Of a DNA stretch of 64,000 nucleotides, positions 12,706-18,185 are shown piece by piece. Within the stretch, counting starts at the first letter, position 1. Each line of letters opens with the position of its first letter. This DNA comes from Daejeonella sp. JGW-45. Lineage in GTDB: Bacteria; Bacteroidota; Bacteroidia; Sphingobacteriales; Sphingobacteriaceae. The notes under the pieces are model-generated. The model saw only the letters and a program-made list of their open reading frames with translations. It did not search any database and had not been told where the DNA came from. The stretch covers positions 248,001-312,000 of the forward strand of contig NZ_JARKNC010000008.1 in NCBI RefSeq assembly GCF_029360805.1, written 5' to 3'. A program made the position numbers and the translations under genes.

Positions 12706-12723
12706 TTTTAGATTAACCTAAAC
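12706..12723. promoter_or_regulatory. Candidate MntR operator upstream of mntR-mntH
   Basis: TTTTAGATTAACCTAAAC is an imperfect palindrome that matches the perfect palindrome in front of the TonB receptor (18168-18185) at 16 of 18 positions. It resembles DtxR-family boxes (TTAGGTTAGSCTAACCTAA type). It ends 7 bp upstream of the mntR -7 element and covers the -33 position, where a bound repressor would block RNA polymerase. Confidence 0.7.
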
Positions 12724-12730
12724 TTATAAT

Positions 12731-12738
12731 TAGATTTG
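12731..12738 (+). promoter_or_regulatory. -7 promoter element for mntR-mntH
   Basis: TAGATTTG matches TAnnTTTG, 14 nt before the mntR ATG. Confidence 0.55.
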
Positions 12739-12752
12739 CTTAATTTAAGTGT

Positions 12753-13409
12753 ATGCATTCATTTACAGAAGAAAATTACCTCAAAGCCATATATCATCTA
12801 AGCGAAGGCAACAGTGTTGCCGTAAGTACAAACAGCATTGCTGAAGTAACAAATACGAAAGCGGCTTCTGTAACGGATATGCTGAGAAAATTGGCAGATA
12901 AGAAGCTCATCAATTATGTAAAATATCAGGGAGTTACTCTAACTGGTATTGGAATAAAGGCTGCTGTAAATATCATCCGTAAACATCGCTTATGGGAAGT
13001 ATTTCTGGTTGAGAAACTTGGCTTTAAATGGGATGAAGTGCACGATATTGCAGAAGAGCTCGAACATATCAATTCAATTTCGCTGATCGACAGGCTCGAC
13101 GATTTTCTTGGAAACCCAATTGCCGACCCACACGGCGACCCTATCCCGGACAGGACGGGAAACTTCAAGCATAAAACACTGATAAAAGTGTCTGATATGA
13201 AACAGGGACAAGGCGGTATTATTTCTGGCGTGAGTGAACATTCTTCTATATTCCTCAAGCATTTGGAAAAGCTGTCTTTAACGCTTGGGACTAAGATCAT
13301 CATTACGGATGTGATCGAATTTGACGGATCCATAATATTGACTGTTGATGAAACTAAAGAAAGAACCATTAGCAGGGAGGTGGCTAAAAATATCCTCGTA
13401 ATCCTATGA
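12753..13409 (+). CDS. mntR: DtxR/MntR-family metal-dependent repressor
   Basis: A 218-residue regulator. The winged helix is at about 5-65 (TNSIAEVTNTKAASVTDMLRKL), the metal-binding dimerisation domain at 70-130 with the family signature HRLWEVFLVEKLGF and EELEH (Glu104, His105) and DPHGDPIP, and an SH3/FeoA-like domain at 142-218. Metal-loaded members repress metal uptake genes. It overlaps mntH by four bases (ATGA), so the two are translationally coupled, which points to Mn(II) (or Fe(II)) as the sensed metal. The promoter carries a DtxR-like palindrome, consistent with autoregulation. Confidence 0.9.
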   Translation: MHSFTEENYLKAIYHLSEGNSVAVSTNSIAEVTNTKAASVTDMLRKLADKKLINYVKYQGVTLTGIGIKAAVNIIRKHRLWEVFLVEKLGFKWDEVHDIAEELEHINSISLIDRLDDFLGNPIADPHGDPIPDRTGNFKHKTLIKVSDMKQGQGGIISGVSEHSSIFLKHLEKLSLTLGTKIIITDVIEFDGSIILTVDETKERTISREVAKNILVIL

Positions 13410-15274
13410 GCAAAAATGACGAGTCGCTAAGCGAAGTTCACAGTTCAGTAAGCACTGCCGGCAAAACAGGTTGGAGAAAATTAATGGCCTTCATTGGCCC
13501 CGCTTATCTTGTAAGTGTAGGTTATATGGATCCAGGCAATTGGGCAACCGATATTGCAGGGGGCAGCCAGTTTGGGTATCAGTTGATTTGGGTGCTGTTA
13601 ATGTCCAATCTTATAGCTCTCCTATTACAATCTTTAAGTGCACGTTTAGGAATTGTCAGGGGACTTGACCTGGCACAGGCTTCACGAAATGCTTATCCTA
13701 AATATGTCAACTATCCCCTATACGTACTGGCCCAGATCGCCATCATAGCCTGCGATCTTGCAGAGATTATTGGTATGGCTATCGGACTGAACCTGCTTTT
13801 CGGATTACCACTCATCTGGGGAATTTCAATCACGATACTTGATACCTTCCTCTTGCTTTTCCTGATGAATAAAGGAATGCGAATGATGGAAGTATTTATT
13901 GTTTCCATGGTCTTCATTGTTGGTATATCGTTTCTGACAGAGATGTTTATAGTAAAACCTATGCTTGGTGAAGTCTTGTCAGGATTCAAACCCTCCGTAC
14001 TATCAGGGAATGCACTTTATATAGCTATCGGTATTATCGGAGCAACGGTAATGCCACATAACTTGTACCTCCACTCATCACTTGTTCAAACAAGGAAGAT
14101 CGACCGAACTGGCAAGGGGATCAGGGAAGCTCTAAAATTTAATCTGATTGATACAACAATAGCACTGAACCTGGCTTTCTTTGTCAACGCGGCAATTCTA
14201 ATTCTGGCGGCAACGGCATTTTATAAAAATGGCCTTCATGAGGTAGCTGAAATACAGGATGCCCACAGGCTTTTGGATAATATCTTCGGGCCCCTTGCTC
14301 CAACATTATTCGCCATAGCACTGATTGCTTCCGGGCAAAGTTCAACCATTACCGGTACGCTTGCAGGGCAGATCGTGATGGAGGGCCATTTGAACCTTCG
14401 GATCCAGCCTTGGATAAGACGGCTCTTAACCCGTTTACTAGCCATTATCCCTGCTTTTTTTACCATCCTTTATTTTGGCGAAGATGCATTAGGCGGACTT
14501 CTTGTATTGAGTCAGGTGGTATTGAGCCTGCAGCTTGGTTTTGCTATTATCCCCTTAATCCATTTTAACTCCGACAGGAGAAAAATGAAAGAATATTCAA
14601 TCAAAACCTGGGTACAGATCCTGGCCTGGTTAAGCGCTCTAATCATTGTGGGATTAAACGTCAAGCTAGTTTTTCAGGAAGTGACAGAATGGATAAGCGC
14701 CGGCAGCGATGTATGGCTTATTTATGCCACAGTTATACCGGTGATAATCATCGTAAGCCTGCTATTGCTATACGTAACATTTGCTCCTTTTTTCAGAAAA
14801 CACAGTGGAAGCTTATCGAATGTCCCACATGGCCCCGCGTTGGAGATCGATACGATCGGAAATATACAGTATAAGATGATTGGGATCACCGTCGACTTTT
14901 CGAAAAACGACCGTAATACCATCCGGCATGCACTTATTCAAGGAGGTAAAGACGCCAAGTACACGCTGATCCACATCGTTGAAACTGCTGGAGCCCGTTT
15001 TCATGGCGAGAAAGTACTGGATCACGAAACCCAAAGCGATACTGACAACCTGGAAAAATACAAGATCAATTTAAAAGATCTTGGCTATGAAGCTGAGGTA
15101 TCTATAGGTTATGGAACTGCTGCAAAGGCTATTTCACAAATCGTCAAAACAAATAGCCTGGACCTGCTTGTAATGGGTGCCCACGGCCACAAAGGTATCA
15201 GCGATCTGATCTTTGGAACCACGGTGGATACAGTAAGGCATAATGTAAATATTCCGATCCTGATTATAAAGTAG
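13406..15274 (+). CDS. mntH: Nramp Mn(II)/Fe(II) transporter fused to a UspA domain
   Basis: A 622-residue proton-coupled divalent metal importer of the inner membrane. The Nramp part (about 20-450) has the TM1 metal-site motif DPGN at 42-45 and the TM6 motif MPHN at 216-219 within MPHNLYLHS, so the metal-binding Asp, Asn and Met are present. Residues from about 475 form a universal stress protein domain, with the ATP-binding pattern G-2x-G-9x-G-T complete at Gly591, Gly594, Gly604 and Thr605. Bacterial MntH is usually near 410 residues, so the extra domain explains the length. It likely lets nucleotide state or stress tune transport; this is inference. Confidence 0.92.
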   Translation: MSKNDESLSEVHSSVSTAGKTGWRKLMAFIGPAYLVSVGYMDPGNWATDIAGGSQFGYQLIWVLLMSNLIALLLQSLSARLGIVRGLDLAQASRNAYPKYVNYPLYVLAQIAIIACDLAEIIGMAIGLNLLFGLPLIWGISITILDTFLLLFLMNKGMRMMEVFIVSMVFIVGISFLTEMFIVKPMLGEVLSGFKPSVLSGNALYIAIGIIGATVMPHNLYLHSSLVQTRKIDRTGKGIREALKFNLIDTTIALNLAFFVNAAILILAATAFYKNGLHEVAEIQDAHRLLDNIFGPLAPTLFAIALIASGQSSTITGTLAGQIVMEGHLNLRIQPWIRRLLTRLLAIIPAFFTILYFGEDALGGLLVLSQVVLSLQLGFAIIPLIHFNSDRRKMKEYSIKTWVQILAWLSALIIVGLNVKLVFQEVTEWISAGSDVWLIYATVIPVIIIVSLLLLYVTFAPFFRKHSGSLSNVPHGPALEIDTIGNIQYKMIGITVDFSKNDRNTIRHALIQGGKDAKYTLIHIVETAGARFHGEKVLDHETQSDTDNLEKYKINLKDLGYEAEVSIGYGTAAKAISQIVKTNSLDLLVMGAHGHKGISDLIFGTTVDTVRHNVNIPILIIK

Positions 15275-15357
15275 TCCTTGCCCGGCGGTCTTAATACAGT
15301 TGCTGCTTCAGAATAGCTCCCTGAATTCACGTTCTAAAAACACTGTAGATTAAGATT

Positions 15358-15813
15358 TTAGTCCCAAAGCAGTTTGGCTAACACCTGAGTGATAGCGTCA
15401 GGTGACAAGTAACCATCTTGCTGGTAAATGATTTCATTCTGTTTATTAAGAATGCATAGAGTGGGATAGGAAACCTGCCCATTAATTGTTCCCAATTCTT
15501 TTGCCAGGCCGTTTACTCCCTGCTCATACCTGAAAGTCCGGCCGGCAAAAGTAATGCTGTCTTTTTCCTCAGCATCAAGGAAAACGGTTCGGTATTTATC
15601 AGCCAAAATCGTTGAGATCTTCTTGCTCCTGAGCATACTGTTCTTCATCGCGTGACAAAACTTACACCAGCTAGTCGATATAAGCACGACCACAGGCCTC
15701 GCTTCCTGTGCCTGTAAAACATTGAGCTCATCAAATTTAAGGGCCCTATTCTGCCCACAAACATTAAAGGCTAAGAGCAGGATGACTGAAGCTATTATAT
15801 ATCCCTTAAACAT
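15358..15813 (-). CDS. Periplasmic thioredoxin-like protein
   Basis: A 151-residue protein with a signal peptide (MFKGYIIASVILLLAFNVCGQ) and a thioredoxin fold. The redox motif is Cys50-Lys-Phe-Cys53 in STSWCKFCHAMKN, and the cis-proline loop reads QVSYPTLCIL. It resembles the thioredoxin_7/DUF255-like group. It starts one base after the stop of the TonB receptor, so the two are cotranscribed. It may keep cysteines of the receptor or its cargo reduced, or release a metal. No separate promoter is visible. Confidence 0.85.
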   Translation of the reverse strand: MFKGYIIASVILLLAFNVCGQNRALKFDELNVLQAQEARPVVVLISTSWCKFCHAMKNSMLRSKKISTILADKYRTVFLDAEEKDSITFAGRTFRYEQGVNGLAKELGTINGQVSYPTLCILNKQNEIIYQQDGYLSPDAITQVLAKLLWD

Positions 15814-15814
15814 T

Positions 15815-18100
15815 TTATTTGATCGTTAGTCTCAAGCCCAGGAAACCGCGAATCCCCTGGTTAGGCGCGTAAACGTATCCCGGATCAAAAGTTAATCCAT
15901 AGGGATTTGAAGGAGTAGGAATAACGTTGCCTGACGCATCGGTTTGCACGCCTTTATCAAACGGGTCTTGACTTCTCGCAATCAGGAAAGGTTCCGATCT
16001 GCCGGGCGTCCAGTTAAGGAGATTTTTAATTCCCCCATATATTTCAAGTTGATTCATGCCGGAGTAAGTAAACTGAATGTTTTGCAGGCTCCAAACGGGA
16101 GACAATCCCTTCCTGGGATCATTATTACTTAACCGCGGCAGACGCATCGGTCCGTAGATGTTACCAGTGTAATCTATTCCTAGATTTAACTTCTCCAGCT
16201 TATAAGAAATGCCCCAGGTTCCGGTCCATTTTTCGGTAAGCATTGGCCTCATTCTTTGCCTTGCTATATTATCCTTTGAGAAAACATCCAACAAGGAACC
16301 ACCGGCAAGAATTTTCAAACCGTTGGCAAATACCATGTCAAAATTAGAGCTGATACCGCGTGAAACCGCGTACCCACTCAGATTACTGTAAATGATCTGG
16401 TTTGCATTGCTTAAGTAATCTGGGATAATTTGATTGTTAAAGTGAGTATACCATGCCGATAGGTCTACGTTTATAAAACTTCCGCTGGTAAAATAGATCT
16501 TCTTAATGAAGTTGAGGTTGGCATTATAACTTCTTTCGGGCTCCAGCTTTTCTGTCACAATCACTTCGCGTGAACCTGTGAGAGCGGCATGCTCTTCAGT
16601 AAAAAGACTAACGACCCTAAAGCCTGTTCCAGCGTTAAGACGAAGTATATTGTTATCATTCAGAACCCATTTGTACGCAATTCTCGGCGTCAGAATGTTT
16701 CCGTGGACAGAATTGTAGTCATAACGCATACCAAGCAATACTTTATGCTGCCCGCTCAAAGCTATTTCGTCCTGAACAAAAACTCCCGGCAGCCAAACTT
16801 TATCAACGTTATTGACGCCGTTGGGCAAAGCCGTGGCTGGCGTATTATCGTCATACATCGTATAACGAAGGGCCGTTCCAAAAAGCAGGTCGTGGCTTTT
16901 TATCTTCTTATCCCAGCTTAACTGGCCGAATGCGATCTTCTGCCGGGCGCCGTAGATAGTACTCCCGTAAACCGAGTTTTGGGCGTGGTCATTTAAGGAA
17001 AAAGCCAGAGTCATCGATTCCCGCACTGGAAGCTGGTAAGACCCCAGAAGTTCCCAGCGGTTTGTATAGATGCTCTCAGCATAACGGTCCGAACCTCCCC
17101 GGTAGGATGGATTCCATGTGACATCCCCGCCCCATCTGTCTTCGTAATTATACCTGGCAGCAAGGCTAAACTGGCGGTTCTCAGGACGGGCAAAATTCCA
17201 TTTTTGAAAAAGCGAAATCCGGTCCTGCTGGGTTACATCCGTGAAATTATCGCCATTCTTATCTATACGATTACCGTATTTAAAATAGTTAATTCCCGTC
17301 AGAACTTCTGTCTTTTTACCAGCCTGAAATCTAAACCCAAGGTCCGTGTTCATTTCTCCCCAGGAGGTAGTGAAAACATCTCCCGAAAATGCCGGGGCAT
17401 TCCGAGGCTTACGGGTGATGATATTAATCAGGCCGCCTACTGCCTCCGATCCATACAAAGAAGACGCGGGTCCTTTTACTATTTCCACACGTTCTATAAG
17501 CGCATTTGGTATGCCAGACAGCCCATAAACAGAAGACAACCCACTGACGATTGGCATACCATCAATTAGTATCATCGTGTAGGGACCTTCTAGGCCGTTA
17601 ATATGTATATCGCCGGTATTGCAGATATTACAGTTTAATTGCGGTCGCACACCATTAACATTCTGCAGCGCATCGAATACCGAAGGTGTCGGATTTTTCC
17701 TGAAAAATGCCGGGCTGTAAACTTCCACAGGCACCGGACTGGCAAGGCGGCTGACCTCCTTCATCGTACCTGTTACAACCACTTCGTCCAGGGACGAGGC
17801 ATCCTGCTTTACAAGAAGAAAATCTGCTCGTAAAACCTGACCGGCCTGCACTTCAACAGATTTGCTCTGTATTTTGTATCCGAGATATGATACCGAGATA
17901 ACATATTTGCCTGGTACTATCTCCTCCAGCCTGTACCTCCCGGCCGAGTCTGTTGACGTCCCATATTTTGAGTTATTGACAGAAATAGTGGCAAAAGAAA
18001 TAGGCTCCGAAGAGGAAACAGTACCATAAACACCGCCGTTCTGCCCGGCGGCCGATAATGAGTGAAACAGCGCAAATACAAGTAAGATTTGAAACCTCAT
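15815..18100 (-). CDS. TonB-dependent receptor, candidate metal importer
   Basis: A 761-residue outer-membrane receptor. It has a signal peptide (to about AAGQ, residue 20), a CarboxypepD_reg-like domain (21-100), a TonB-box-like DEVVVTGTMKE at 105-115, a plug domain and a 22-strand barrel ending in the typical aromatic-poor GFLGLRLTIK. The plug carries Cys157 and Cys160 in QLNCNICNTGDIHING, a conserved sub-family motif that could bind a metal. A perfect 18-bp palindrome, shared with the mntR promoter, lies in its promoter. Manganese or iron import is therefore the best guess; a chelate is equally possible. Confidence 0.88.
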   Translation of the reverse strand: MRFQILLVFALFHSLSAAGQNGGVYGTVSSSEPISFATISVNNSKYGTSTDSAGRYRLEEIVPGKYVISVSYLGYKIQSKSVEVQAGQVLRADFLLVKQDASSLDEVVVTGTMKEVSRLASPVPVEVYSPAFFRKNPTPSVFDALQNVNGVRPQLNCNICNTGDIHINGLEGPYTMILIDGMPIVSGLSSVYGLSGIPNALIERVEIVKGPASSLYGSEAVGGLINIITRKPRNAPAFSGDVFTTSWGEMNTDLGFRFQAGKKTEVLTGINYFKYGNRIDKNGDNFTDVTQQDRISLFQKWNFARPENRQFSLAARYNYEDRWGGDVTWNPSYRGGSDRYAESIYTNRWELLGSYQLPVRESMTLAFSLNDHAQNSVYGSTIYGARQKIAFGQLSWDKKIKSHDLLFGTALRYTMYDDNTPATALPNGVNNVDKVWLPGVFVQDEIALSGQHKVLLGMRYDYNSVHGNILTPRIAYKWVLNDNNILRLNAGTGFRVVSLFTEEHAALTGSREVIVTEKLEPERSYNANLNFIKKIYFTSGSFINVDLSAWYTHFNNQIIPDYLSNANQIIYSNLSGYAVSRGISSNFDMVFANGLKILAGGSLLDVFSKDNIARQRMRPMLTEKWTGTWGISYKLEKLNLGIDYTGNIYGPMRLPRLSNNDPRKGLSPVWSLQNIQFTYSGMNQLEIYGGIKNLLNWTPGRSEPFLIARSQDPFDKGVQTDASGNVIPTPSNPYGLTFDPGYVYAPNQGIRGFLGLRLTIK

Positions 18101-18145
18101 AAATTAGATCAATAAAAAAAACTCATCAGCTAATTTAATATCATG

Positions 18146-18163
18146 AATTAGATTAACAAAAAT
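18146..18163. promoter_or_regulatory. Possible second, weaker operator
   Basis: Contains TTAGATTAA (18148-18156), nine consecutive matches to the operator, exactly 22 bp (two helical turns) from the main site. It matches at 12 of 18 positions and overlaps the -7 element. Confidence 0.35.
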
Positions 18164-18164
18164 A
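18157..18164 (-). promoter_or_regulatory. -7 promoter element of the TonB receptor operon
   Basis: TATTTTTG on the minus strand, 57 nt before the start codon and 3 bp from the palindromic operator. Confidence 0.55.
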
Positions 18165-18167
18165 CAA

Positions 18168-18185
18168 TTTTAGATTAATCTAAAA
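18168..18185. promoter_or_regulatory. Perfect 18-bp palindromic operator
   Basis: TTTTAGATTAATCTAAAA is identical to its reverse complement. It lies between the -33 and -7 positions of the TonB receptor promoter. The same sequence with two changes is in the mntR promoter, so MntR binding is the simplest explanation. Confidence 0.7.

Follow-up and report, generated by a model that had tools for sequence, protein, structure and literature searches.

A shared palindromic operator linking a predicted mntR–mntH operon with a TonB-dependent receptor–thioredoxin operon in Daejeonella sp. JGW-45 and other Bacteroidota

Two neighbouring operons on contig NZ_JARKNC010000008.1 of Daejeonella sp. JGW-45 (RefSeq assembly GCF_029360805.1) raise the question of whether one regulator governs metal uptake across both membranes. 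The analysed stretch of 64,000 nucleotides (positions 248,001 to 312,000 of the forward strand) is called the window, and positions are given within it. On its forward strand, mntR (12753–13409; Pfam PF01325, PF02742 and PF04023 above cut-off) encodes a DtxR-family regulator with a FeoA domain, and mntH (13406–15274; PF01566, PF00582, NF001923), whose start overlaps the mntR stop, encodes an Nramp importer with a fused Usp domain. On the reverse strand, a gene for a TonB-dependent receptor with plug and barrel (15815–18100; PF00593, PF07715) is followed by one for a thioredoxin-fold protein (15358–15813; PF13098), the receptor stop overlapping the start of the thioredoxin gene. As a first-pass annotation made from the sequence alone had stated, the two operons face each other at their 3′ ends, mntH ending at 15274 and the thioredoxin gene at 15358. 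The same annotation proposed that one operator links them, and this proposal was supported by conservation in 20 related genomes, by recurrence across Bacteroidota and by covariation with the recognition helix of MntR. Those of its refuting conditions that sequence analysis could address turned out in favour of the proposal. Taken as a whole, MntR probably represses both operons through the shared dyad in response to Mn(II), and the operons would encode Mn importers for both membranes.

The operator of the receptor operon, TTTTAGATTAATCTAAAA (18168–18185), is a perfect palindrome, and that of mntR, TTTTAGATTAACCTAAAC (12706–12723), matches it at 16 of 18 positions, as first described. Operators are treated below as the 16-bp dyad TTTAGA-N4-TCTAAA, with offsets counted from the first base of the dyad; at mntR this dyad is TTTAGATTAACCTAAA (12707–12722). 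Flavobacterial sigma-A promoters have the −7 consensus TAnnTTTG (PMC9723704). The −7 element of mntR, TAGATTTG, lies at 12731–12738 on the forward strand and that of the receptor operon, TATTTTTG, at 18157–18164 on the reverse strand. The gaps of 7 and 3 bp, respectively, between operator and −7 element were found as proposed; a clear −33 element, which had been taken to bound the spacer on the other side, was not identified. Each promoter also contains a further half-site at +22: the left half TTAGA (12730–12734, forward strand), overlapping the −7 element of mntR, and the right half TCTAAT (18147–18152, reverse strand), at the predicted transcript start of the receptor operon. The latter had been noted as a weaker copy of the operator at 18146–18163 and proved to be a genuine half-site.

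A degenerate operator pattern had five matches in the window with up to three mismatches, whereas 100 shuffles averaged 0.64 and never exceeded 4. When the 4.1-Mb genome was scanned for TTTTAGATTAAYCTAAAM, as had been recommended, the only places without mismatch were these two operators; with up to three mismatches there were 21 forward and 19 reverse matches, the reversed control giving 13 and 16, respectively. The relaxed dyad TTTAGRN4YCTAAA was exact at four places, namely both operators, a site preceding an mntR paralogue and another within a long susC-like open reading frame (C2:758747). With one mismatch allowed it was not enriched across the genome (49 matches per strand, the reversed control having 79). 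Two further sites with two mismatches were not accepted as operators: C1:605652 lies inside an open reading frame of 166 amino acids, and C2:422151 lies between fatty-acid-synthesis-like genes, partly in the wrong orientation to the start of its neighbour.

Comparison with related genomes, another check recommended at the outset, showed that the dyad has been kept at both promoters. Among the 20 genomes of the Daejeonella group that were searched, MntR was found in 19 and the receptor in 15, and the island UDG–Lrp–MntR–MntH/thioredoxin–receptor–SmpB was present on a single contig in 12 genomes including the present one, with a thioredoxin match missing in one of these (G013); in G008 and G016 it was divided between contigs. 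TTTAGA-N4-TCTAAA with at most one mismatch occurred in 19/19 mntR promoters and 11/15 receptor promoters. The additional half-site stood exactly 22 bp downstream in all 19 mntR promoters (left half) and in all 11 dyad-bearing receptor promoters (right half), the next-best offset accounting for 2/19 and 1/11, respectively, and it overlapped the −7 element at mntR or sat at the predicted start of the receptor transcript. The dyad ended 4–8 bp before the −7 element, and TAnnTTTG was located at +24 in 17/19 mntR promoters and at +20 in 8/11 dyad-bearing receptor promoters. The sole group genome lacking mntR (G007) has its receptor at another locus with no dyad (best match with four mismatches), which also supports a shared operator.

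The association was not confined to this group. From 440 receptor relatives the best 80, each from a genome named as Bacteroidota, were compared; because seven of these loci come from the Daejeonella group and many of the genomes are closely related, the counts are not independent. MntR was encoded in 65/80 loci, divergent from and adjacent to the receptor in 45, and MntH in 25/80. After exclusion of the group loci, an exact TTAGRN4YCTAA stood no more than about 200 bp ahead of the receptor gene in 48/73 loci; none of 11 scrambled half-sites or 8 altered spacer lengths occurred there at all. When one mismatch was tolerated, the count rose to 68/73, and the scrambled versions averaged 3.3 and reached at most 11. 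In 31 T-type loci, defined below, the centre of the dyad is TTTG, so that the −7 element TAGNTTTG, in which N varies, lies inside the operator; the agreement of all 31 follows from how the class was defined. In G-type loci, TAnnTTTG was found at +21 in 12/20 and at +20 in 4/20. The +22 half-site rule was not general among loci outside the Daejeonella group. At one locus (L097) the receptor gene is followed by a gene for a ZnuA-family metal-binding protein.

By the left outer base, two operator classes were distinguished, TTTAGA (T-type) in 49/80 loci and GTTAGR (G-type) in 23/80, with seven loci unassigned and one of another form. Operators of DtxR and IdeR consist of inverted TTAGG/TTAGA half-sites, with two dimers on a 19-bp box, and the regulators have an iron-type metal site. 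The GTTAGR class is the closest to these operators. Operator class was compared with the recognition helix in the 59 loci that had both parts (21/80 were excluded for lack of a site or of MntR, or because MntR was a fragment), using the highest-scoring rather than the nearest MntR of each locus. Residue 39 was Ser in 39/40 T-type and Thr in 13/13 G-type loci; in six mixed sites it was Thr in four and Ser in two. With mixed sites grouped with the G-type, operator type changed 4 times on the MntR tree and 7 times on the receptor tree, and 1000 shuffles of either never gave fewer than 10 changes. Since operator type tracks both residue 39 and the MntR tree, MntR is favoured as the reader of the site. 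The Ser39/Thr39 switch would offer an easy way to test specificity in the DtxR family.

Presence of the dyad was also related to presence of MntR in a family sample of 121 genomes, in which an MntR of at least 57% identity was counted as close. The exact T-type dyad TTTAGAYWWRTCTAAA occurred in 52/67 genomes with a close MntR and in 6/54 without (Fisher p = 9e-14), compared with 11/67 and 3/54 for the reversed control (p = 0.09). The matches listed comprised 75 distinct dyad places; 37 of these were located at most 120 bp upstream of the MntR start, 12 at 4.9–5.9 kb from MntR, which is the place of the receptor, one at 2.9 kb, and 25 were remote from MntR. From the conservation, the controls, the covariation and the absence of the dyad where mntR is absent, MntR is therefore well supported as the common repressor, and we consider its control of both operons very probable.

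The metal to which the regulator responds was approached through its predicted ligands. By alignment, the candidate primary site consists of N8, E101, E104 and H105, and H78, E82 and H97 are conserved. Three of these four primary positions agree with the Mn(II)-type site of Bacillus subtilis MntR (Asp8, Glu99, Glu102 and His103; PMC4805248), Asp being replaced by Asn. Glu also occupies the position of DtxR Cys102 (ligand positions as given in PMC4805248), and a site with Glu here and without sulphur ligands would suit Mn more than Fe. MntH scored 578.8 bits against NF001923, the NCBIfam model for Mn(2+) NRAMP transporters, above its cut-off of 430. Mn(II) is the likely signal.

The receptor and its partner both carry cysteine pairs. 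The plug motif C157-N-I-C160 (codons 17621–17632, reverse strand) has the form C[NQGSA][IV]C across Bacteroidota receptors, with both cysteines invariant in 80/80 homologues and H166 kept in 79/80. The thioredoxin-fold protein contains WCKFC (Cys codons 15666–15664 and 15657–15655, reverse strand), and WCxxC was present in all 34 thioredoxin homologues compared; a search with this protein gave no PDB sequence match at E 0.001. The top Foldseek matches of the receptor, FepA, Cir and BtuB, reflect the general receptor fold only. Its AlphaFold2 model had a mean predicted local distance difference test score (pLDDT) of 72.3 and values below 50 at residues 149–174; because this low-confidence region includes the CxxC, no metal-site geometry is claimed. 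Mn is favoured as the cargo of the receptor, with less assurance than as the signal.

In the mechanism that we propose, metal-loaded MntR would bind the 16-bp dyad at the mntR–mntH and receptor–thioredoxin promoters. In the Daejeonella group, the bound repressor should block RNA polymerase because the dyad lies close to the −7 element and the +22 half-site, about two turns away, touches the −7 element or the transcript start. A fall in the metal, most likely Mn(II), would release MntR from both sites, so that the receptor of the outer membrane and the Nramp importer of the inner membrane would be produced jointly. A probable role of the thioredoxin-fold protein is to maintain the plug cysteines of the receptor in reduced form.

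Several observations weigh against this mechanism. MntR remained below the NCBIfam equivalog cut-offs (138.6 of 350 bits for NF047407, 55.4 of 138 for NF003025 and 38.7 of 153 for NF008273), and for this reason its name rests on context. Asn at residue 8 is unusual, B. subtilis MntR having Asp8 and DtxR Met10. Among named models, those of siderophore, B12 and haem receptors come nearest to the receptor, though it stays under the cut-off of each, and a thioredoxin homologue was detected downstream in just 33/80 receptor loci. In three group genomes (G004, G018 and G019) the mntR dyad is kept and the receptor dyad is absent (3, 4 and 5 mismatches, respectively), where it seems to have decayed. 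Among 20 remote exact dyads examined in the family sample, six lay in open reading frames and four were intergenic with no recognised partner. The agreement of residue 39 with operator type is partly phylogenetic, both being inherited. Three of these points, Asn8, the equivalog scores and the resemblance of the receptor to siderophore and B12 receptors, would suit an IdeR-like regulator that uses the same operators with iron as both signal and cargo and an iron-chelate receptor; Nramp proteins can carry Fe(II) too. However, Glu in place of DtxR Cys102, the MntH score above the Mn NRAMP cut-off and the ZnuA-family gene behind receptor L097 speak against iron, as does the counterpart in Stenotrophomonas maltophilia, which is described as answering to Mn via MntR, though needing low Fe as well (PMC13217887), and we regard the iron alternative as unlikely. 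Slightly more room is left for a receptor that MntR controls together with mntH and that takes up another metal or metal chelate (Zn, Cu or Co) or a ligand employed when Mn is scarce. The CxxC of the plug would fit a softer metal, the cargo cannot be read from sequence, and the structure model has low confidence in this region; yet the recurrent linkage of the receptor to mntR, and to mntH in 25/80 loci, makes this a rather improbable choice compared with Mn.

Whether the dyad belongs to MntR at all was judged by the same data. In the window, as in relatives, mntR stands divergent to a gene of the Lrp family, and a Fur-like open reading frame stands beside some receptors of a second family, so that MntR could be the mere neighbour of a site owned by another regulator. 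Nevertheless, the dyad is also found at receptor promoters distant from lrp, its type follows residue 39 and the tree of MntR, and its presence follows that of MntR; ownership by an Lrp- or Fur-family protein is therefore very improbable and was rejected. Chance, or shared ancestry of two AT-rich promoters, could draw on the lack of genome-wide enrichment of the relaxed dyad at one mismatch, but would have to account for the scramble and spacer controls and for half-sites kept at the same 22-bp offset in two promoters that are unrelated, and was rejected as next to impossible. Repression of both operons by MntR accordingly remains the preferred reading.

A comparable module has been described in S. 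maltophilia Sm18 (PMC13217887, 2026), where a TonB receptor with CQNC in the plug is accompanied by a thioredoxin-fold partner with CAPC. According to that report, an MntR box lies between the promoter elements, deletion of mntR derepresses the receptor locus and mntH, and the receptor module answers to Mn via MntR and needs low Fe too; binding of Mn by the Cys motif, and its reduction by the partner, are proposed there. Both systems combine MntR, MntH, a CxxC-plug TonB receptor and a CxxC thioredoxin-fold partner encoded near each other. The present island, in contrast, belongs to another phylum and uses a TTTAGA/GTTAGR dyad with a 22-bp half-site instead of a 25-bp box. The synteny figure of PMC13217887 covers Lysobacterales, Sphingomonadales and Opitutales, and the term "bacteroid" is absent from its main text. 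The island may be read as a Bacteroidota variant of the Stenotrophomonas module with its own operator design, likened to it by motifs and context. MnoT–TseM of Burkholderia thailandensis, as described in the same report, likewise serves TonB-dependent outer-membrane Mn transport but works with an Mn-binding protein that a type VI system secretes. Within Bacteroidota, PgMntR of Porphyromonas gingivalis (PMC4805248) is also a DtxR-family regulator sharing an operon with an Mn transporter gene; it differs in having two FeoA domains, an Asp19/Cys108 site and feoB2 as target, and "TonB" and "palindrom" are absent from the main text of that paper. In the open-licence PMC literature searched, no description was found of an MntR-controlled TonB receptor in Bacteroidota, nor, in the literature searched, of Mn(II) passage across their outer membrane. 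The island suggests that the MntR/CxxC-receptor link known from Stenotrophomonas recurs in another phylum, and it offers a testable candidate for outer-membrane crossing of Mn, with receptor, partner protein, regulator and operator code.

Other genes may belong to the same set. Among the 20 remote dyads, seven stood 17–62 bp before a second TonB-receptor family (L183–L188 and L198) of about 820 amino acids, with the plug sequence GQQWGDEHGIE and no CxxC; the other partners were a CxxC receptor, mntH and a di-haem oxidoreductase (DHOR) gene, one each. The second receptor family is thus a candidate further member of the MntR-controlled set. At L183 and L187 the Fur-like open reading frame is divergent from the receptor. 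In the JGW-45 genome, an operon encoding DHOR, Rieske, DUF3347 and haem-binding proteins (L042, 263–6298; C2:555.3–561.3 kb) is divergent from the second MntR gene, whose product is 52% identical, and the exact relaxed dyad lies between them. Of 11 DHOR orthologues in the family, six had a T-type dyad 31–61 bp upstream and seven an MntR homologue at the locus; in G040, DHOR directly follows mntH. The DHOR operon is a candidate redox arm of Mn acquisition. A bolder and doubtful extension would have MntR control a whole reductive Mn-scavenging route in many Bacteroidota, in which a DHOR/Rieske/barrel-like operon would reduce surface Mn(III/IV), the redox-gated CxxC receptor with its own thioredoxin would carry Mn through the outer membrane and MntH through the inner one, and a single operator type, its outer base read by residue 39 of MntR, would switch the whole route.

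Some minor observations concern individual loci. The receptor was not found at E 1e-60 in group genomes G003 (82% complete) and G017, and a partial dyad persists at the former receptor junction in both (L046, 7117–7132, and L059, 6169–6184, respectively), in keeping with the shared operator. The mntR gene of G017 (L059, 8362–9016) is in two reading-frame pieces, through either a broken gene or a sequencing error. The receptor promoters of three related genomes (L047, L060 and L061) have neither the dyad nor the +22 half-site, though the mntR dyad is kept. In two family genomes of one genus, the dyad GTTTAGATTTATCTAAA lies inside or at the start of an open reading frame of 320 amino acids (L192, 4071; L193, 4000). 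A third MntR-like gene (46% identity; L043, 5770–6312), with an apparently short N-terminus, is located beside genes for a P-type ATPase and RND-like proteins.

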